Positions 12,602 to 18,401 of a stretch of DNA of 20,069 nt are shown here, in pieces. The notes under the pieces are model-generated. The model made no database searches, was not told the DNA's origin, and saw only the letters and a list, made by a program, of their open reading frames with translations. The DNA comes from a virus. The stretch is taken from the IMG/VR virus record IMGVR_UViG_3300043444_000008, positions 1-20,069 of that record, one strand, 5' to 3'. Position 1 is the first letter of the stretch. Each line of letters opens with the position of its first letter. A program made the translations under genes and the position numbers.

Positions 12602-12627
12602 AAAAAAAGAGGGAACTCAATCCCTCT
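12602..12627 (-). terminator. Strong intrinsic terminator between early and virion genes
   Basis: On the minus strand a perfect 7-base-pair stem AGAGGGA-N6-TCCCTCT is followed directly by a run of T (TTTTTTT). It lies 38 bases beyond the stop of the HNH gene, so it ends the leftward early/accessory transcript. Stem 12608-12627, T-run 12602-12608. Confidence 0.9.
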
Positions 12628-12664: not shown

Positions 12665-12922
12665 TTATCCAATTAGTTTTGCAAGTGTTTCGTTTAATAC
12701 CGACATTTCGTCATGTTTCATAACAGACCAAATCCTAGATTGTCCGTGAATTCCGTTATGTGGCCCTTGATGGCAGTCTCTACAAAGCGGAATACACAGG
12801 TACTGGTGATGCTGCTTAATGTGATGAGCATCGCTTGGCCCTGCCTGACCACATACCCCACAAGGCATTTCTTTAATCCTTGCTAGGTGCAATCTTTCCC
12901 TCTTTGTAAAACTGTTATTCAA
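12665..12922 (-). CDS. Small HNH endonuclease-like protein
   Basis: An 85-residue zinc/HNH protein. Cys21-x2-Cys24 and Cys47-x2-Cys50 form a probable zinc site. His33-His34 and the C-terminal CHQGPHNGIHG (His51, Asn56, His59) give the HNH core. The layout (SDAHHIK, IPLCRDCHQ, GIHG) resembles phage HNH proteins related to Ref and other recombination nucleases, so DNA cutting during recombination is the likely job. The start is TTG in the only open position upstream of the zinc site, 6 bases after a GGTGG site and overlapping the previous gene by 8 bases. An internal ATG at residue 19 would leave the zinc site intact. A terminator follows. Confidence 0.8.
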   Translation of the reverse strand: MNNSFTKRERLHLARIKEMPCGVCGQAGPSDAHHIKQHHQYLCIPLCRDCHQGPHNGIHGQSRIWSVMKHDEMSVLNETLAKLIG

Positions 12923-13373
12923 TTTCTACCACCTTATCACCTCGTGACTTTATGTAGTCTTTTGTTTTCTGAATGTATCTCTCAAACTCACTTCGAGGAA
13001 TACTTGATTGCTGCAAGTCTGCGAATTCAATCAAATCACGACAGGCTTGGATTCCCTCTCCATCAAGCACAATACGCATTGTTGTGCCATAGCGTTCTGC
13101 TGCTTTGTGTAGGCTTGCTTGCGCCTTCTCGCAGATTGGAAGAACTTCAGGCCCTACCCCTGCTCGTCCCATAGTCTCTGCTAGATTAAGCACATCAACC
13201 AGACTGCGCCAGTCATGGATAGTTCCTCTGCCCTTGATAATCGCCTCAAGTGCGGAATACTCCATCATTCGAAGTTTGTCCAACTTCTCCCTGTGGGTTA
13301 TCGATGCACCCACGATGGCGTGCTGTATGGGATTTATCAGATTCCAGAATTTGCGTTTCGTCTTTTTTCTCAT
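12915..13373 (-). CDS. Conserved phage protein of unknown function
   Basis: A 152-residue helical protein starting MRKKTKRKFWNLINPIQHAI. Recognisable stretches are KLRMMEYSALEAIIKGRGTI, then HDWRSLVDVLNLAETMGRAG and GVGPEVLPICEKAQ, a pattern I have seen in proteins of unknown function from phages of Gram-negative bacteria. A start 7 codons upstream is open, but this ATG is 8 bases after GGA in AAAGACA context and the sequence before it does not resemble the conserved part. Its first 128 bases overlap the 70-residue gene in a different frame, an unusually long overlap here. No catalytic motif is seen. Confidence 0.75.
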   Translation of the reverse strand: MRKKTKRKFWNLINPIQHAIVGASITHREKLDKLRMMEYSALEAIIKGRGTIHDWRSLVDVLNLAETMGRAGVGPEVLPICEKAQASLHKAAERYGTTMRIVLDGEGIQACRDLIEFADLQQSSIPRSEFERYIQKTKDYIKSRGDKVVEIE

Positions 13374-13458
13374 TGTCTTTTCCAAAGATGGCATCCCATC
13401 TGCTTGCGTATTCTTCGTTGCTTACTTTAAATGGTCTTGGCGAACTTCCCTTGCTCAT
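13246..13458 (-). CDS. Small conserved phage protein (SSPRPF...WDAIFGK)
   Basis: A 70-residue protein. The N-terminal 27 residues, MSKGSSPRPFKVSNEEYASR followed by WDAIFGK, match a short phage protein type of unknown function that normally ends soon after the FGK word. Here the frame runs on for over 40 more residues of low-complexity, charged sequence which lies over the start of the next gene. A strong GGGGG-containing site precedes the ATG, and the start overlaps the previous stop by 4 bases (ATGA). I believe the N-terminal part; the tail may be simple read-through to the next stop. Confidence 0.7.
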   Translation of the reverse strand: MSKGSSPRPFKVSNEEYASRWDAIFGKDNEKKDETQILESDKSHTARHRGCIDNPQGEVGQTSNDGVFRT

Positions 13459-14087
13459 GCTTCCCCCTTAATGCCGTGTGCGGCTTCGATGGCTCGGGCA
13501 AATGTATATAGCCGTGTGCCATAGGCGTTAACATCTTCAAGGATTGCGCCTATCTCCTCATCCGTCAGCGGCTTGCGCTGTGGTGGGGTATATGCAAAAA
13601 ACTCAGCATAAAGAAGTTCGTCACGCCTACGAATAACAATAGAAACTCCATCTTCAGTTGTATCAGAACCTACAGAAATATCGTTTGCAGACATTGATGC
13701 GGCTCGAATATGCGCTTTGACTTGTTCGTATGTAAACGATTTTGGCGGATGCGTATAAAGCAAACAGTTCTGAGGCCAATCATCAATCATCCATGTGATG
13801 CGACCTCCCTCGTTTTTGGCAACTGGTGCAGGCTCATCCTTCGCTTCTAGTTTTGGTTCATAAGACACGATAAATGTTTCACCTTCTTTTTGTTTCGGCA
13901 ACATTGCAGGCACGCCTTCATTCCATACCACAGGCTCATCCTTCGCTTCTAGTGCGGCTTTAATGGCGGTGATTAGTGCGTCTTGGTCAATGTGTTCTGC
14001 GTTGTATCTGTCATCTGGCACTAATTCCACGTATTCCAATGCAAGGCGTAACGTTTGTTCCAAACTCAATGCTTCTTCTTTGGTCAT
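13455..14087 (-). CDS. Phage accessory protein with repeated LEAKDEP segments
   Basis: A 210-residue acidic protein. It contains two copies of LEAKDEP (in AALEAKDEPVVWNEG and PKLEAKDEPAPVAKNEG) and a C-terminal module QRKPLTDEEIGAI, then AIEAAHGIKGEA. The PLTDEEI...AHGI module ends many otherwise unrelated accessory proteins in phages of Gram-negative bacteria, so this looks like a mosaic protein. A middle segment around FTYEQVKAHIRAA may be a small helical domain. No enzyme motif is seen. It is coupled by ATGA at both ends, to the 33-residue membrane peptide before and the 70-residue gene after. Confidence 0.7.
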   Translation of the reverse strand: MTKEEALSLEQTLRLALEYVELVPDDRYNAEHIDQDALITAIKAALEAKDEPVVWNEGVPAMLPKQKEGETFIVSYEPKLEAKDEPAPVAKNEGGRITWMIDDWPQNCLLYTHPPKSFTYEQVKAHIRAASMSANDISVGSDTTEDGVSIVIRRRDELLYAEFFAYTPPQRKPLTDEEIGAILEDVNAYGTRLYTFARAIEAAHGIKGEA

Positions 14088-14185
14088 TCTTTATCTTTCA
14101 ATTTAACTTCAGCAAATGCTTTGAGAAAAGGAATAAGCAATGCAAAAAACACACCAATCAGCATATATCCAATAGCTTCAATCAT
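14084..14185 (-). CDS. 33-residue single-span membrane peptide
   Basis: Reading leftward from the ATG at 14183-14185 gives MIEAIGYMLIGVFFALLIPF followed by LKAFAEVKLKDKE and a stop. Residues 4-21 form one clear membrane span, and the tail is basic, which predicts the C-terminus in the cytoplasm. The start overlaps the glutaredoxin stop by 4 bases (ATGA) and the stop overlaps the next start in the same way. Perfect linkage at both ends is strong evidence that it is a real gene despite its size. Function unknown; possibilities are a superinfection or membrane accessory peptide. A holin is less likely at this length and place. Confidence 0.75.
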   Translation of the reverse strand: MIEAIGYMLIGVFFALLIPFLKAFAEVKLKDKE

Positions 14186-14418
14186 GTCATTCCTAACTTC
14201 TTTAAAGCATCTTTTAACCCTGCCAAACCACCTACTCTTTGGTCACCAATGAAACACTGTGGCATCTGACGAGCTTCTGGATAGTTCGCAACAAAGTTAG
14301 CAAACCTGTCACCAGTCTCAATGTCTATCTCTTTGTATTCAAGATTCAAAGTCTTGAGTAGATTCTTTGCTGTCACGCAATTAGGGCAGCCAGATTTACT
14401 ATAGATAGTGATGTTCAT
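14182..14418 (-). CDS. Glutaredoxin / NrdH-type redoxin
   Basis: A 78-residue thioredoxin-fold protein. The active site is Cys11-Pro-Asn-Cys14 after a first strand MNITIYSKSG. The cis-proline is in RQMPQCFIG (Pro53), and the glutathione-side motif is Gly63-Gly64 in RVGGLAGL. Length is normal for a class I-type glutaredoxin. In phages such proteins reduce ribonucleotide reductase or other thiol enzymes during DNA synthesis. No reductase gene is visible here, so the host enzyme is the probable partner. An AAGGA site precedes the ATG, which overlaps the HNH-AP2 stop by 4 bases. Confidence 0.92.
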   Translation of the reverse strand: MNITIYSKSGCPNCVTAKNLLKTLNLEYKEIDIETGDRFANFVANYPEARQMPQCFIGDQRVGGLAGLKDALKKLGMT

Positions 14419-14909
14419 AATGTGTTTCCTTCATGAAACTCTCTTTTAGCATTTAAGTAAGCCTGATGAGCTAATTCTGCTGTATCAAAAAACCCAAGAA
14501 ACTTTTGTTTTCGATTTACAGTAATAACACCACGCCATTTTTTTCTATCTTCACGCCAACCAGCACCTAAATAGCCTGAAGTATTTTTTGTTCCAATAGT
14601 TCTCTTGTTTTCGCAATTTGTTTTATGTGAAACATCTCGTAAGTTTTCAATTCTGTTATCTAATGGATTTCCATTTTTATGGTCTATAAATTGATTGGGC
14701 CATTCTCCATACACATACATCCATGCCAATCTATGTGCAAGATATCGTTTTCTATTGATTGCAATTTCAATATAGCCTTTGTTATGATGAGTTCCAGCAA
14801 TTGACCAAGGCTTCTTTTTTCCTGCATGGCTTTTACCACTAAACCTCCAGCGAAAAACACCAGTTTGCACATCGTAATGAATCACTTGTTTAATTTCATC
14901 TTGTGTCAT
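14415..14909 (-). CDS. HNH homing-type endonuclease with AP2 DNA-binding domain
   Basis: A 164-residue protein. Residues 59-90 carry the HNH core: AHRLAWMYVYGEWPN, then IDHKNGNPLDNRIENLR, with His59, Asp76-His77, Asn79 and Asn89 as the usual residues. Residues 106-155 form an AP2-like domain (SGYLGAGWREDRKKWRGVI, then KFLGFFDTAELAHQAY), the common DNA-binding partner of HNH homing enzymes. Such genes cut a target site and spread by repair. It is not visibly inside an intron: the reading frames on either side join it through TAATG at the start and ATGA at the end, so it is a stable member of this operon or an insertion that kept coupling. Confidence 0.9.
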   Translation of the reverse strand: MTQDEIKQVIHYDVQTGVFRWRFSGKSHAGKKKPWSIAGTHHNKGYIEIAINRKRYLAHRLAWMYVYGEWPNQFIDHKNGNPLDNRIENLRDVSHKTNCENKRTIGTKNTSGYLGAGWREDRKKWRGVITVNRKQKFLGFFDTAELAHQAYLNAKREFHEGNTL

Positions 14910-15166
14910 TAGATGCCTCGCATATCATAGTCAACAGAACGAGCATGGTCAGCTTCATCCAAGATATGCTTAGATAAACGCATACAACCTTCAATCTCTA
15001 ACTCTTTAAACTGGACAGCAGAGAACAGACCAATCACATTACGGCCTTCAAACCATATTTCTTCAATGTTCTCGCCATAGATTCCTTCTTCGTCTGTGTC
15101 GTATTCCATGACAACAGTAACAATCTCAGAGCCTTCACCAACAGTTGTGTCAAATTCGTATTTCAT
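14909..15166 (-). CDS. Small acidic phage protein, unknown function
   Basis: An 85-residue, strongly acidic protein: MKYEFDTTVGEGSEIVTVVM, then YDTDEEGIYGENIEEIWFEG, ending in a helical part around LEIEGCMRLSKHILDEADHA. The beta-rich acidic front and helical end are seen in small phage proteins of unknown role. It is the first gene after the leftward promoter at about 15.2 kb, has an AAGGA site about 9 bases before the ATG, and shares base 14909 with the HNH-AP2 start (TAATG). Acidic DNA mimics have similar charge, but nothing here proves that. Confidence 0.8.
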   Translation of the reverse strand: MKYEFDTTVGEGSEIVTVVMEYDTDEEGIYGENIEEIWFEGRNVIGLFSAVQFKELEIEGCMRLSKHILDEADHARSVDYDMRGI

Positions 15167-15185
15167 TGCTTATTCCTTAAAAGTA

Positions 15186-15204
15186 CCCTTGCGAATTGCT
15201 TGGG
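15186..15204 (-). promoter_or_regulatory. Shared 19-base leader element, leftward copy
   Basis: Read leftward this is CCCAAGCAATTCGCAAGGG, identical to 18115-18133. It begins 8 bases after the -10 box TACAAT and has partial dyad symmetry (CCC/GGG and GC/GC around the centre). Operator or RNA signal; see the right-hand copy. Confidence 0.7.
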
Positions 15205-15212
15205 CTGAGTGC

Positions 15213-15242
15213 ATTGTATAGTTTTCTCAACACAATTGTCTA
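15213..15242 (-). promoter_or_regulatory. Leftward sigma-70 promoter for the accessory genes
   Basis: The -35 box is TAGACA (15242-15237) and the -10 box is TACAAT (15218-15213) with an 18-base spacer; TATACA with a 16-base spacer is an overlapping choice. It lies in the 87-base gap between the 110-residue gene and the acidic protein gene, and the predicted start is about 15206, just before the shared element. Confidence 0.65.
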
Positions 15243-15253
15243 GGTGTTTATAC

Positions 15254-15586
15254 CTACTCTGTGGTTTTTACGCCAAGACGCTCACTTGCTTGCTCACTTC
15301 TCCAAATGTCAGCTTTCATCTGGGCAGCAACAAGCATCCACTTTAATGTTTCTTCTTTCTCAATAGCAACCATTAACCCTTTAAGCAGGTCAGCGTATTC
15401 GTAGTGCGCATAGGCTTCACGCTCTTGAGCAACAGCAGAATCTATCCCTCTTGCCATTGCATCTTTCATCAGCAAAGCCTTCTTTGTTTTGCGGAACTCC
15501 TCAAGGTAGATTCTTTGTGCTTTAGCTTCCGCATATTTGCATGAATTTTCAATGATGTACTCAATGGCTTTGTAAGGTGCTTTCAT
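15254..15586 (-). CDS. Helical phage protein of unknown function, next to RusA
   Basis: A 110-residue, almost wholly helical protein: YAEAKAQRIYLEEFRKTKKA, then LLMKDAMARGIDSAVAQERE, then YADLLKGLMVAIEKEETLKW and AAQMKADIWRSEQAS. This series is common to a small phage protein usually placed among replication and recombination genes, but I know no tested function. It starts in an ATGA overlap with the RusA gene, so the two are made together and may act in the same process. It is the last gene before the 87-base gap that holds the second leftward promoter. Confidence 0.8.
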   Translation of the reverse strand: MKAPYKAIEYIIENSCKYAEAKAQRIYLEEFRKTKKALLMKDAMARGIDSAVAQEREAYAHYEYADLLKGLMVAIEKEETLKWMLVAAQMKADIWRSEQASERLGVKTTE

Positions 15587-16011
15587 TCAAGGCACTCCTT
15601 GACGCAAATATCCACACCAGATTGACTTGAATAAACCTTGGTCACATGGATATTCACAATCTGAGAATCATCCTTGTAAACAACACCATTCATTCCGTCT
15701 TCTATGCTTTTCAAAATATTGGAAGCATCAGGTTTCTTGATTGGTTTTTCATCACCTTTAGCAATAGCCTCCAAACGCTTTTTTGTAGCGGATGCAGGGA
15801 TTTGCACTCGGATGTATAAATAAAGGCTTACAGGGGTCTCTAAAGGCTCGGAAGACCCCATTGCTTGCTTTGCTGAGTCTTTAATCAAAGATTCGTATGT
15901 TCTGGTTTTTTCAGGCGTGTAAGTTTGGACAAAGTTTCCACGCTTGGCATACCTTGCTCTTTGCTTACCAACAGGGTTGCCTTCAACCATAAATGTGACC
16001 ATAAATGTCAT
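15583..16011 (-). CDS. rusA: RusA-family Holliday junction resolvase
   Basis: A 142-residue endonuclease that cuts four-way junctions left by recombination or replication. The N-terminal EGNPVGKQRARYAKRG is the family glycine/basic motif. The catalytic region is KKPDASNILKSIEDGMNGVV followed by YKDDSQIV, with Asp95, Asp105 and Asp114-Asp115. The position matching the second Asp of the E. coli PDxDN-type motif is Ser97, which some family members also vary. The first codons contain a 12-base tandem duplication (MTFMVTFMV), so starts at residues 4 and 8 are also possible. ATGA overlaps join it to both neighbours. Confidence 0.9.
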   Translation of the reverse strand: MTFMVTFMVEGNPVGKQRARYAKRGNFVQTYTPEKTRTYESLIKDSAKQAMGSSEPLETPVSLYLYIRVQIPASATKKRLEAIAKGDEKPIKKPDASNILKSIEDGMNGVVYKDDSQIVNIHVTKVYSSQSGVDICVKECLE

Positions 16012-16220
16012 TCCAGTTTTCCTTCTCGCATCTGAGCCATATAAGCCCTTATTCTGTCTCTAGCACCAGTCCCATAAATTCGTTCTGCTCTTTCAAGCCT
16101 TGCACGAATAAGGTCACGATTCTTTGTTTGTTCCCAGTTGTGGAATAACTCTCGGGCTTCTGCTTGCTCAAGAATTACCCTATCGCTTGGGCTTTCGACA
16201 TTACGTCTGCTGTAAGTCAC
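16008..16220 (-). CDS. Small Arg-rich phage protein, unknown function
   Basis: A 70-residue, highly charged helical protein: ESPSDRVILEQAEARELFHN, then LIRARLERAERIYGTGARDR, ending IRAYMAQMREGKLE. It resembles small proteins beside replication genes in phages of Gram-negative bacteria, with no known role. The start codon is GTG, with GGA 9-12 bases upstream inside the 37-codon gene it overlaps by 20 bases. Its end overlaps the RusA start by 4 bases. Confidence 0.7.
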   Translation of the reverse strand: MTYSRRNVESPSDRVILEQAEARELFHNWEQTKNRDLIRARLERAERIYGTGARDRIRAYMAQMREGKLE

Positions 16221-16314
16221 CAGTCAATTCCAATGCTTTGTTTATCAGGTAAAGAGGGTAGTTAACGCCATCCTTGACCTTATCTAAAAGTTTGTGTGCA
16301 TCTGCGTGACTCAT
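16201..16314 (-). CDS. 37-residue protein linked to the P-like gene
   Basis: Leftward from the ATG at 16312-16314 the product is MSHADAHKLLDKVKDGVNYP followed by LYLINKALELTGDLQQT. It fills a 90-base hole between annotated neighbours. Its ATG overlaps the stop of the P-like gene by 4 bases (ATGA). The segment DGVNYPLYLINKALELTGD looks like a folded helical hairpin. No family is recognised. The perfect overlap and the filled gap are the main evidence. Confidence 0.65.
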   Translation of the reverse strand: MSHADAHKLLDKVKDGVNYPLYLINKALELTGDLQQT

Positions 16315-16700
16315 TTTGCAAAAGCCTTTCTAAGTTCAGCAAGTCTTGCCAATCCTTCAGCTTTTACTCTGTCAGCTTCAATTTGTTCATGCAGCGTTTT
16401 TTTACGCTCAATCTGAACCATTGGTTTGACAGGAATCTCTGGCCCAGCATTGCAAAGGTTTCTAAACTTAATTGCACTAGGAATGAACTCTCCATCCAGT
16501 TTGGCAATGGCAAAATCCATGCTTGGTCTGTATGTCAGAAATCGACCCAGTTGATTTTTCCATTCTTGTCGAACAAAGTCTGGGTCTAGTCCATCAAAGT
16601 GACGATTAAATGGCGCACCAAAAATAGCCATCATTCTTCCAAAGATGTAATCAAGTCCTTGGTCTTGTGTGCAGAAATCAGTTTCCGAGTAGCTTGACAT
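16311..16700 (-). CDS. Replication accessory protein, lambda P-like (helicase loader candidate)
   Basis: A 129-residue protein. The core LDYIFGRMMAIFGAPFNRHF, then PDFVRQEWKNQLGRFLTYRP and GEFIPSAIKFRNLCNAGPE, matches the conserved helical part of phage replication proteins of the lambda P group, which bring the host helicase to the origin. The C-terminus is a charged helix (LHEQIEADRVKAEGLARLAE). A GTG eight codons upstream is open, but the ATG at 16700 has GGAGG 8 bases before it and is preferred. It directly follows the O-like gene (23-base overlap), the order found in lambdoid phages. Confidence 0.75.
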   Translation of the reverse strand: MSSYSETDFCTQDQGLDYIFGRMMAIFGAPFNRHFDGLDPDFVRQEWKNQLGRFLTYRPSMDFAIAKLDGEFIPSAIKFRNLCNAGPEIPVKPMVQIERKKTLHEQIEADRVKAEGLARLAELRKAFAK

Positions 16701-17400
16701 TGCTGTTGCCTCCAATAAGTCCACGAGTTAAGCCTGAGATTACACGCTGATTCATCTGACCAGTCTTGCTCAAACTTTCGTCTTTTACCCAATCAGCTTT
16801 AAAAGACTGCCAGTTGCGAACAATGGTTTCTTTCAATGCATCTTCCAATGACCAACCCGCAATCCTTGCTTGCTCTTGTATGCCATCAACAACCAATTGA
16901 GTAACACGAGCCTTCTTGGATTTCCTGTGAGCAATAAACTCTTGCCAAACAGAATCAGAAACACCTTCAGGTGTTGCAACGATAGTTGTCTTCTTATGCT
17001 TCTGTTCTGTATCTGTATCTGTATCTGTATCTGTATCTATAGCGTTACTTTGACGTTTCTGTAACGTTTCATCAACGTTACTTGGTTGTTTCTTTTTATC
17101 TCGATACTTGCGAACCCGCATGGTGCTTGAGTCTGAGACAAATTGACGTTTATCCCAATTCAATAAATTCCATTGCTCATCAATAAAATTCTTACTGACA
17201 AACAGTTGTTTTGTTTCAATGAGTTCAGCTTCTGATATTCGCAATTGAAACGCTATCTCTGTTTCATGTAACGTTTCAAGTGTTTCACTACATCTGAGGC
17301 ACATAAGCATGACATAGCGTCTTTGCATAGCCTCTGGAAGCATTTGAATTTTTGGGTCATGTGCGAACTCTGAATAGAGTCGAAACCACGGATTAGCCAT
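16678..17400 (-). CDS. Replication initiator, lambda O-like
   Basis: A 240-residue protein. The N-terminal MANPWFRLYSEFAHDPKIQM, then LPEAMQRRYVMLMCLRCSET, and a winged-helix part (AFQLRISEAELIETKQLFVS) are typical of phage replication initiators that bind the origin. Residues about 95-135 form a linker with RVRKYRDKKK and a run of Asp-Thr pairs encoded by a hexanucleotide repeat. The C-terminal part (SVWQEFIAHRKSKKARVTQL, GWSLEDALKETIVRNWQSFK) is the usual second domain. It heads the leftward replication genes, with no strong ribosome site at the ATG. In lambda-like phages the origin lies inside this gene; no clear iteron set was found here. Confidence 0.85.
   Translation of the reverse strand: MANPWFRLYSEFAHDPKIQMLPEAMQRRYVMLMCLRCSETLETLHETEIAFQLRISEAELIETKQLFVSKNFIDEQWNLLNWDKRQFVSDSSTMRVRKYRDKKKQPSNVDETLQKRQSNAIDTDTDTDTDTEQKHKKTTIVATPEGVSDSVWQEFIAHRKSKKARVTQLVVDGIQEQARIAGWSLEDALKETIVRNWQSFKADWVKDESLSKTGQMNQRVISGLTRGLIGGNSNVKLLGN
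17007..17040 (-). repeat. Hexanucleotide tandem repeat (CTGTAT)5 in the O-like gene
   Basis: Five perfect copies at 17007-17036 plus a partial sixth. On the coding strand it gives alternating Asp-Thr codons in the linker between the two domains. Copy number changes would alter linker length without shifting the frame. Confidence 0.9.
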
Positions 17401-17415
17401 AATTTTTGCCGCTTT

Positions 17416-17475
17416 TTAAAGCCCCTTGAAAGAAACTTCGGCAGGAGAAGGGGTAACTCTTTTCGGTCTGCTCAT
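17416..17475 (-). CDS. Possible 19-residue peptide upstream of the O-like gene
   Basis: An open frame in the 109-base gap reads MSRPKRVTPSPAEVSFKGL. AGG lies 9 bases before its ATG and the stop is 15 bases before the O-like start. It could be a leader peptide or a remnant. The length is too short to be convincing. Confidence 0.3.
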   Translation of the reverse strand: MSRPKRVTPSPAEVSFKGL

Positions 17476-17486
17476 GACTTCAGACC
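17465..17486. promoter_or_regulatory. Inverted repeat GGTCTG-N10-CAGACC, candidate operator
   Basis: Perfect 6-base arms one helical turn plus apart (17465-17470 and 17481-17486) lie between the winged-helix regulator gene and the O-like gene, just downstream of an extended -10 box at 17504-17512. Such spacing suits a dimeric repressor. No protein is shown to bind. Confidence 0.35.
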
Positions 17487-17503
17487 TAGCCGTGTTTCAA
17501 ATT

Positions 17504-17512
17504 ATTGTATCA
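17504..17512 (-). promoter_or_regulatory. Possible promoter for the replication genes
   Basis: TGATACAAT on the minus strand fits the extended -10 form and overlaps the stop codon of the winged-helix gene. No good -35 is visible. It could serve the O-like gene 100 bases downstream. Confidence 0.3.
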
Positions 17513-17857
17513 AATAAATTGATTGTTAGTGATTTCTTTTTTACCTTGTTTGCCAAGCAATCGAGTAGCCTGTTGTTTCATCACAGCATACTCAGCTTTT
17601 GTAAAGATGCCGTAAGTCTTGATGCCACAGATGATTTTTACATTGCTGTCTTGCTTTTCTATTTCATTGTCAGCCAAGGTGTATTGAGCAACCCAATGTC
17701 TGCCTACTTTGACCTGCTCTGTTGTCAGCTTGCCTAGGCTACGCAGTTTCTTGGCTGTTGACAGGACTGTGGCTTGTGGCATACCAGTCAGGTTAGCAAC
17801 TTCGTGTGAAGTCAATGGGCCGTTCTGGAGGGCTTTGATTACTTGTGCTTGAGTCAT
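17510..17857 (-). CDS. Winged-helix regulator coupled to the Cro-like gene
   Basis: A 115-residue protein. Residues 1-50 form a winged helix-turn-helix: MTQAQVIKALQNGPLTSHEV, then ANLTGMPQATVLSTAKKLRS and LGKLTTEQVKVGRHWVAQY as the wing, in the style of MarR or IclR family DNA-binding domains. The rest is basic and less ordered (FTKAEYAVMKQQATRLLGKQ). The frame is open 21 codons further from a TTG, but the ATG at 17855-17857 overlaps the Cro-like stop by 4 bases (ATGA), so I start here. It probably controls the early promoters, or lysogeny, together with its partner. Confidence 0.75.
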   Translation of the reverse strand: MTQAQVIKALQNGPLTSHEVANLTGMPQATVLSTAKKLRSLGKLTTEQVKVGRHWVAQYTLADNEIEKQDSNVKIICGIKTYGIFTKAEYAVMKQQATRLLGKQGKKEITNNQFI

Positions 17858-18006
17858 TTGAACCAATCTGGTCTGAGTTCTTTGAGTTGATAAAGGCGTA
17901 ACAAGGGAATTGTCTTCCAATGGTTGACTGCTGCTCTTGATATGCCAAGGATACGAGATAGCTCACTCTGCGAGCCAGCAAGTGTGATAGCGGTTTGTTT
18001 GTCCAT
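17854..18006 (-). CDS. Cro/YdaS-like helix-turn-helix repressor (50 residues)
   Basis: Reading leftward from the ATG at 18004-18006 gives MDKQTAITLAGSQSELSRIL, then GISRAAVNHWKTIPLLRLYQ, then LKELRPDWFK and a stop. The helix-turn-helix QSELSRILGISRAAVNHWK is clear, and the following IPLLRLYQLKELRP is the usual closing helix of Cro/YdaS-type regulators of 50-80 residues. It faces the strong rightward promoter across a 144-base divergent region, the classical place for a Cro or CI gene. Its stop overlaps the winged-helix start by 4 bases. No ribosome site precedes the ATG; a leaderless transcript is predicted. Confidence 0.85.
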   Translation of the reverse strand: MDKQTAITLAGSQSELSRILGISRAAVNHWKTIPLLRLYQLKELRPDWFK

Positions 18007-18012
18007 CTTTGG

Positions 18013-18021
18013 AGTATAGCA
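18013..18021 (-). promoter_or_regulatory. Leftward extended -10 promoter giving a leaderless repressor mRNA
   Basis: TGCTATACT on the minus strand fits an extended -10 box, and the base 7 after it is the A of the Cro-like ATG (18006). No -35 or ribosome site is visible. The geometry is that of lambda PRM and cI. Confidence 0.6.
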
Positions 18022-18033
18022 AAATCAACAAAA

Positions 18034-18096
18034 TGTTTACTAAAAACGACACTAGGGAAAATACTTATGAAATAGTTATTGACCTGTCTGTTTACT
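18034..18096. promoter_or_regulatory. Paired TGTTTACT sites, candidate repressor operators
   Basis: The octamer TGTTTACT occurs at 18034-18041, upstream of the leftward -10 box, and at 18089-18096, inside the spacer of the rightward promoter. Same orientation, 55 bases apart. Placement at both promoters fits half-sites or operators for the Cro-like or winged-helix protein. Confidence 0.4.
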
Positions 18097-18106
18097 TTGA
18101 TATACT
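18079..18106 (+). promoter_or_regulatory. Strong rightward early promoter
   Basis: The -35 box is TTGACC (18079-18084), the spacer 16 bases and the -10 box TATACT (18101-18106). The predicted start is near 18113, two bases before the shared 19-base element. It drives the recombination operon and diverges from the repressor genes. Confidence 0.8.
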
Positions 18107-18114
18107 TCATCCAA

Positions 18115-18133
18115 CCCAAGCAATTCGCAAGGG
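18115..18133 (+). promoter_or_regulatory. Shared 19-base leader element, rightward copy
   Basis: CCCAAGCAATTCGCAAGGG starts 8 bases after the -10 box, exactly as in the leftward copy at 15186-15204. Flanks differ, so the match is not part of a longer duplication. It ends 6 bases before the AAGGAG ribosome site of the first gene. Confidence 0.75.
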
Positions 18134-18150
18134 CCATAAAGGAGAACCAA

Positions 18151-18243
18151 ATGAAAAGTAAGATTATTCAAACGCTAGTTGAGTGGACATTGGCAGTCAT
18201 CATCTTTGGCGGTATTGGCGTAATGTTGGCATGGAGAGGCTAA
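18151..18243 (+). CDS. 30-residue membrane peptide, first gene of the rightward operon
   Basis: The product is MKSKIIQTLVEWTLAVIIFG followed by GIGVMLAWRG. Residues 8-27 form one hydrophobic span with a Gly-rich core (FGGIGV). A near-perfect AAGGAG site lies 6-7 bases before the ATG, the best in the rightward operon, and the stop shares a base with the next start (TAATG). As the first gene after a strong early promoter it should be made early and in quantity. The role is unknown: host membrane or exclusion functions are typical for such genes, but that is inference. Confidence 0.75.
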   Translation: MKSKIIQTLVEWTLAVIIFGGIGVMLAWRG

Positions 18244-18401
18244 TGCAAACAGAACACTTAAGACGCAAGGCTCGTCAGCTTTACAACAACGAGCAAGTCC
18301 CTACTAAAGTCAACCAGTACAACCAACGTAAATGGGTCAGGTCAGTTCTTAAACTTGGTGACAAGTGGTTAGTAGCCAAGCAGATAGGACGCATCCAATG
18401 A
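18243..18401 (+). CDS. 52-residue basic phage protein
   Basis: The product begins MQTEHLRRKARQLYNNEQVP and continues with NQRKWVRSVLKLGDKWLVAK. I use the ATG that overlaps the membrane peptide stop (TAATG); a GTG 20 codons upstream in the same frame would lie inside the membrane peptide gene and gives an implausible N-terminus. The pattern RRKA.xLxN...VP...RxWxxSVxxLGDxWLxA is shared by small early-operon proteins of unknown function in other phages. The basic helices suggest DNA or protein binding. Confidence 0.75.
   Translation: MQTEHLRRKARQLYNNEQVPTKVNQYNQRKWVRSVLKLGDKWLVAKQIGRIQ

Follow-up and report, generated by a model that had tools for sequence, protein, structure and literature searches.

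An RNA hairpin at the predicted 5′ ends of two divergent operons was identified in a 20,069-nt stretch of viral DNA (the window, analysed at its full length), and it is shared by uncultured tailed phages that form a large group; it has no match in Rfam. In these widespread environmental phages, the small structured RNA marks both operons and defines two sites of expression that exchange accessory genes. It can serve as a handle in searches for such genes, and its 30 natural versions form a series for testing the minimal requirements of a 5′ leader.

In the window, an exact 19-mer is present once on each strand (Table 1), as claimed in the initial annotation, and no further site with three or fewer mismatches was found there (none expected, from 100 dinucleotide shuffles). 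Other parts of that annotation were reproduced as well: the −10 boxes TACAAT (left) and TATACT (right) both end 8 nt before the element, the sequences flanking the two copies differ, and the predicted transcript start, an A two bases 5′ of CCC in both copies, agrees with the proposed transcription from about +3. Both transcripts would be ‘early'. The right one heads an operon of small ORFs and ERF, SSB and MazG genes, and the left one heads an accessory-gene block within a leftward operon. Folding of the two leaders, a check proposed in the same annotation, gave modest predicted energies (−7.6 kcal mol−1 for the left and −6.1 kcal mol−1 for the right; z of about −0.4 to −0.9). Elsewhere in the window, positions 17422-17496(−), between the winged-helix and O-like genes, resemble int-alpA RNA (RF02996) at 32.9 bits, just under the cut-off of 35.8 bits; the score in one relative (L236), 38.7 bits, is above it. 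A run of TCTGTA/TATCTG repeats that encodes Asp-Thr repeats is present at 17009-17038 in the O-like replication gene, where phage origins are commonly located.

Table 1. Positions in the window of the two leaders, their promoters and first genes, and the neighbouring regulator.
Feature	Position	Strand	Basis or remark
Left promoter TAGACA-18-TACAAT	15213..15242	−	10/12 consensus; −10 TACAAT at 15218-15213
Left conserved leader block CAG-hairpin-TACTTTTAAGGA, entire predicted 5′-UTR up to the Shine-Dalgarno sequence (SD)	15174..15207	−	Column entropy
Left hairpin CCCAAGCAATTCGCAAGGG	15186..15204	−	Exact match; predicted fold −7.6 kcal mol−1; covariation in relatives; about +3 to +21 of left transcript
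First gene of left leader, 85 aa, no assigned function	14909..15166	−	Relatives in at least 156 viral stretches
Right promoter TTGACC-16-TATACT, TG before −10	18079..18106	+	10/12 promoter-like; −10 TATACT at 18101-18106
Right hairpin, same 19-mer	18115..18133	+	Exact match; about +3 to +21 of right transcript
SD of right leader, AAAGGAG	18138..18144	+	Sequence
First gene of right leader, 30-aa hydrophobic peptide	18151..18243	+	Family starts 52 right leaders
P22_Cro-like regulator	17854..18006	−	Pfam PF14549, 2.8e-08, above cut-off
Promoter of cro-like gene: O2 dyad TAAACATTTTGTTGA (18039-18025) and −10 TATACT (18018-18013)	18013..18039	−	−10 six nt before ATG
Left upstream dyad O1 TAGGTATAAACACCTA	15241..15256	−	O1 dyad in 85/103 left promoters
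Right upstream dyad O1 TAGGGAAAATACTTA	18053..18067	+	O1 in 70/90 right promoters; this form and position in 14

Thirty distinct versions of the hairpin were aligned without manual adjustment into one structure. Standard pairs fill 96.6% of the pair cells over the 30 hairpins, a level reached in 0 of 500 shuffles; displacing the structure by 1–3 columns lowers the share to 35% or less. These figures are counts of pairing rather than probabilities, as the 30 sequences are related. At three pairs both sides have changed, with G-U intermediates present; the outer stem reads CCCAC/GTGGG, CCCGC/GCGGG or CCCT/AGGG, and the inner stem GC/GC, AC/GT or GA/TC. The covariation thus indicates real base pairing, which is to be expected of a 5′-terminal stabilising stem-loop. 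The versions are 19, 21 or 22 nt long, and these lengths together with the G-U pairs favour an RNA over a DNA operator. In the internal loop, two unpaired As are the same in each of the 30 versions, an indication of recognition or of a specific fold; the hairpin loop mostly begins with A, and its sequence as well as the size of the internal loop vary. A covariance model run over 885 kb returned 98 sites at 39–62 bits and nothing weaker up to E=0.5, in a search where the model's own sequences match by construction and the loci had been chosen by protein. As far as the compared sequences can tell, the case for an RNA hairpin is strong, and the RNA-level signal that the initial annotation had placed in the leaders of the two divergent operons is upheld by the covariation and by a conserved block that begins at the predicted transcript start.

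The exact 19-mer was present in at least 119 viral stretches in a scan of IMG/VR. At nearly all of the listed loci it lies 8–9 nt behind a −10 box and ahead of an SD, so that the search behind the promoters of related phages, which had been recommended earlier, met with the element. Two exact copies, L028:2306-2324(−) and L072:6827-6845(+), are in unrelated context without promoter or SD and probably represent chance or a different use. The same leader was also seen in independent samples that were fetched by the 85-aa left protein and by the ERF protein, with no selection on the 19-mer. Comparison of the terminase places the window closest to Manatee Spring phage ctXG6705 (64%) and Methylophilales phage Venkman (60%), followed by Pelagibacter phages of the HTVC010P kind. 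Applied to these two nearest isolates, the hairpin model returned no hairpin, just partial alignments to the SD end. No DNA or leader similarity was found among 50,697 phage records, and the leader pattern, used as a clue to the host, gave a single chance match in 84,980 prokaryote genomes. The models of Rfam 15 had no match at the two sites with E up to 5, and no description of the hairpin was found in the literature searched, which lay mostly outside subscription journals.

Among the relatives, no locus carried more than two leaders, and the left and right leaders were divergent in all of the 105 loci having both. The distance from the −10 box to the stem is 8 or 9 nt at every site, in a site search that admitted 7–10 nt only. 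The stem begins 1–2 nt after the predicted start, and it is separated from the SD by 4, 5 or 7 nt, this gap being TACTTTT, TCTTTTT, TAATT or CAATT, and CCAT in the right leader of the window. The left leader is an almost invariant 33-nt 5′-UTR, from CAG to AAGGA, located between variable promoters and variable genes: over 103 left leaders, column entropy across the block is about zero, as it is over the 28 chosen without the 19-mer, and it rises to about 1–1.7 bits on either side, except at the −10 box. For the right leader, 25 hairpins were found among 90 distinct sites, diverse in sequence and with fold and place kept.

The first genes behind the leaders belong to 20 families, the 85-aa family being the commonest at the left site. 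Six families were found behind both the left and the right leader; therefore, genes have either passed from one site to the other or been acquired at both. In a sister group, the HNH gene (12665-12922 in the window) comes directly after the 110-aa gene, without the left leader block, and thus the left leader heads an accessory cassette. The accessory block at 12915-15242, which includes the 85-aa protein, an HNH endonuclease and a glutaredoxin-like protein among others, is missing in the sister group, where its flanking genes are adjacent. The sister group, without the present hairpin, carries an unrelated GTGG..CCAC hairpin near the start of the right transcript, whose position there is uncertain. 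In the window, a clean intrinsic terminator at 12608-12627(−) separates the accessory block from the terminase and structural genes, downstream of the left leader.

The exact identity of the two copies is a peculiarity of the window's genome: left and right hairpins are identical in one of 58 distinct pairs, that of the window alone, in collections that may lack close relatives of the window. Shuffling led to an expectation of 3.2 identical pairs (P(≤1)=0.023, a statistic noticed post hoc and on related genomes). This is weak evidence that identical copies are avoided and good evidence that their identity is unnecessary; a sequence-specific shared signal thereby loses its main support.

Comparison among the relatives establishes the predicted fold, its fixed place, the two copies per genome, the conservation limited to the leader and the exchangeable genes. 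As to function, we propose, at about even confidence, that the 5′-terminal hairpin shields the mRNA end and acts as a generic stabilising leader for exchangeable genes. The 19-mer would form the transcribed 5′ end of the two divergent operons, folding 1–2 nt after the predicted start and ending 4–7 nt ahead of the SD, which would be left open. Both RppH and RNase E require a single-stranded 5′ end, hence the stabilising effect of 5′ structures (PMC3997798), and the hairpin may hide the 5′ end from the two enzymes. With such a generic leader, any small gene behind the promoter could be expressed. Both promoters are probably repressed together by the Cro-like protein via separate upstream dyads, and the invariant left block probably doubles as a short homology for the swapping of accessory genes. 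In favour of this reading, the sister group has its unrelated hairpin at the corresponding place, and the cro-like transcript, which is probably leaderless, lacks the hairpin. The weak stem (−7.6 and −6.1 kcal mol−1) argues against a stabiliser, as a pure one need not be so weak.

Recognition of the hairpin by a trans-acting protein on both operons, whether for nut/put-like antitermination or for translational regulation, is possible although not probable. A binding factor is kept in play by the weakness of the stem and by the unpaired As common to all versions; the two copies (one per divergent operon), the loop that mostly starts with A, the terminator downstream of the left leader and a small basic 52-aa protein in the right operon (18243-18401(+); one version begins with the arginine-rich LRRKARQLYNN, another with LTHVRKIF) also fit it. 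However, no conserved boxA (CGCTCTTA-like) was found between the hairpin and the SD, which follows the hairpin directly, the loop sequence and the internal-loop size vary, the left and right hairpins of one genome are normally unlike, and the sister group has an unrelated hairpin. Moreover, the 52-aa protein, the only arginine-rich N-like candidate found, is missing in several genomes with the hairpin (for example, L092 and L016) and was rejected as an obligatory partner. The nut-like signals envisaged in the initial annotation are thus not supported: no cognate arginine-rich N protein was found to go with the hairpin in all genomes, and candidates other than the 52-aa protein may still fill that role. 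Conceivably, a phage or host factor reads the fold and the unpaired As rather than the sequence, an undescribed RNA-based control that would switch on or protect both operons and any gene inserted behind them; this, too, is tentative. Two other candidates were rejected. The 110-aa protein encoded immediately upstream of the left promoter, considered as a Q antiterminator, is not similar to the two annotated antiterminators; for the hairpin plus U-run as an attenuator, the U-run is missing in many leaders including the right one of the window. It appears unlikely that the element is mainly a recombination linker, that is, a conserved boundary for the swapping of accessory cassettes without an RNA role: the 33-bp block conserved amid mosaic sequences, the gene families that the two leaders have in common and the ERF recombinase gene of the phage are consistent with a linker, yet covariation and length changes in the right leader keep the fold and not the sequence, and the two copies tend to be non-identical.

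Very improbable is the remaining alternative, in which the hairpin at +3 to +21 is a DNA operator of the Cro-like repressor; an operator had been allowed for in the initial annotation. The dyad is imperfect, its phase to the promoter is fixed and the P22_Cro-like gene adjoins, but a repressor operator should have a fixed dyad length and be common to the regulator's own promoter, whereas the hairpin takes three lengths (19, 21 and 22 nt), accepts G-U for G-C and is absent from the cro promoter. An upstream dyad is present there: O2 matches the palindrome TMAACA-3-TGTTKA at 12 of 12 positions in the window. Among the relatives, 11 or more positions match in 26 of 62 cro promoters, and the same threshold was reached upstream in 61 of 103 left promoters and 49 of 90 right ones but in no shuffles, so that a palindrome other than the hairpin occurs in all three kinds of promoter; in the window it is perfect at the cro promoter, though weak at the left and right ones. 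The O1 dyads follow the pattern TAGG..CCTA, upstream in 85 left and 70 right promoters. The upstream dyad common to the cro promoter would therefore be a better operator candidate than the hairpin. The mRNA of the cro-like gene is probably leaderless, since the −10 box of this gene ends 6 nt before the start codon in the window, as it does in 56 of 62 distinct relatives.

Among known systems, lambda nutL and nutR likewise provide two divergent operons with one RNA hairpin each, and the present hairpin is boxB-like in this respect; unlike them, it has no boxA, no spacer and no N candidate common to all genomes, and it stands at the extreme 5′ end beside the SD. Among T7 late transcripts (the gene 10 leader), several mRNAs carry a similar hairpin at the 5′ end, ahead of a U-rich stretch and the SD, yet its sequence is unrelated, and here the promoters are host-type and two divergent operons only are served. 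Published work comes closest with 5′ stabilising stem-loops (PMC3997798) and with the Start Associated Sequences of Cluster K mycobacteriophages (SAS/ESAS; PMC3203893). As with the stem-loops of Escherichia coli ompA and papA mRNAs, to the extent that these are described in the source consulted (Emory et al. 1992 and Bricker and Belasco 1999, cited in PMC3997798), the phage stem lies within 1–2 nt of the predicted 5′ end and upstream of an accessible SD; it differs in being short and weak, in its conserved unpaired As and in its two copies per genome, and stabilisation would here be by analogy. SAS are conserved at the translation starts of exchangeable, unrelated genes, about half of them with an upstream inverted repeat, and their function is unknown (PMC3203893). 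The phage hairpin resembles them as a conserved element ahead of exchangeable, unrelated phage genes. Whereas SAS (13-bp GGGATAGGAGCCC) occur at start codons in 11–19 copies per genome (PMC3203893), the phage hairpin has a different sequence, lies at the predicted 5′ end of the transcript in two copies, and its dyad itself covaries as RNA.
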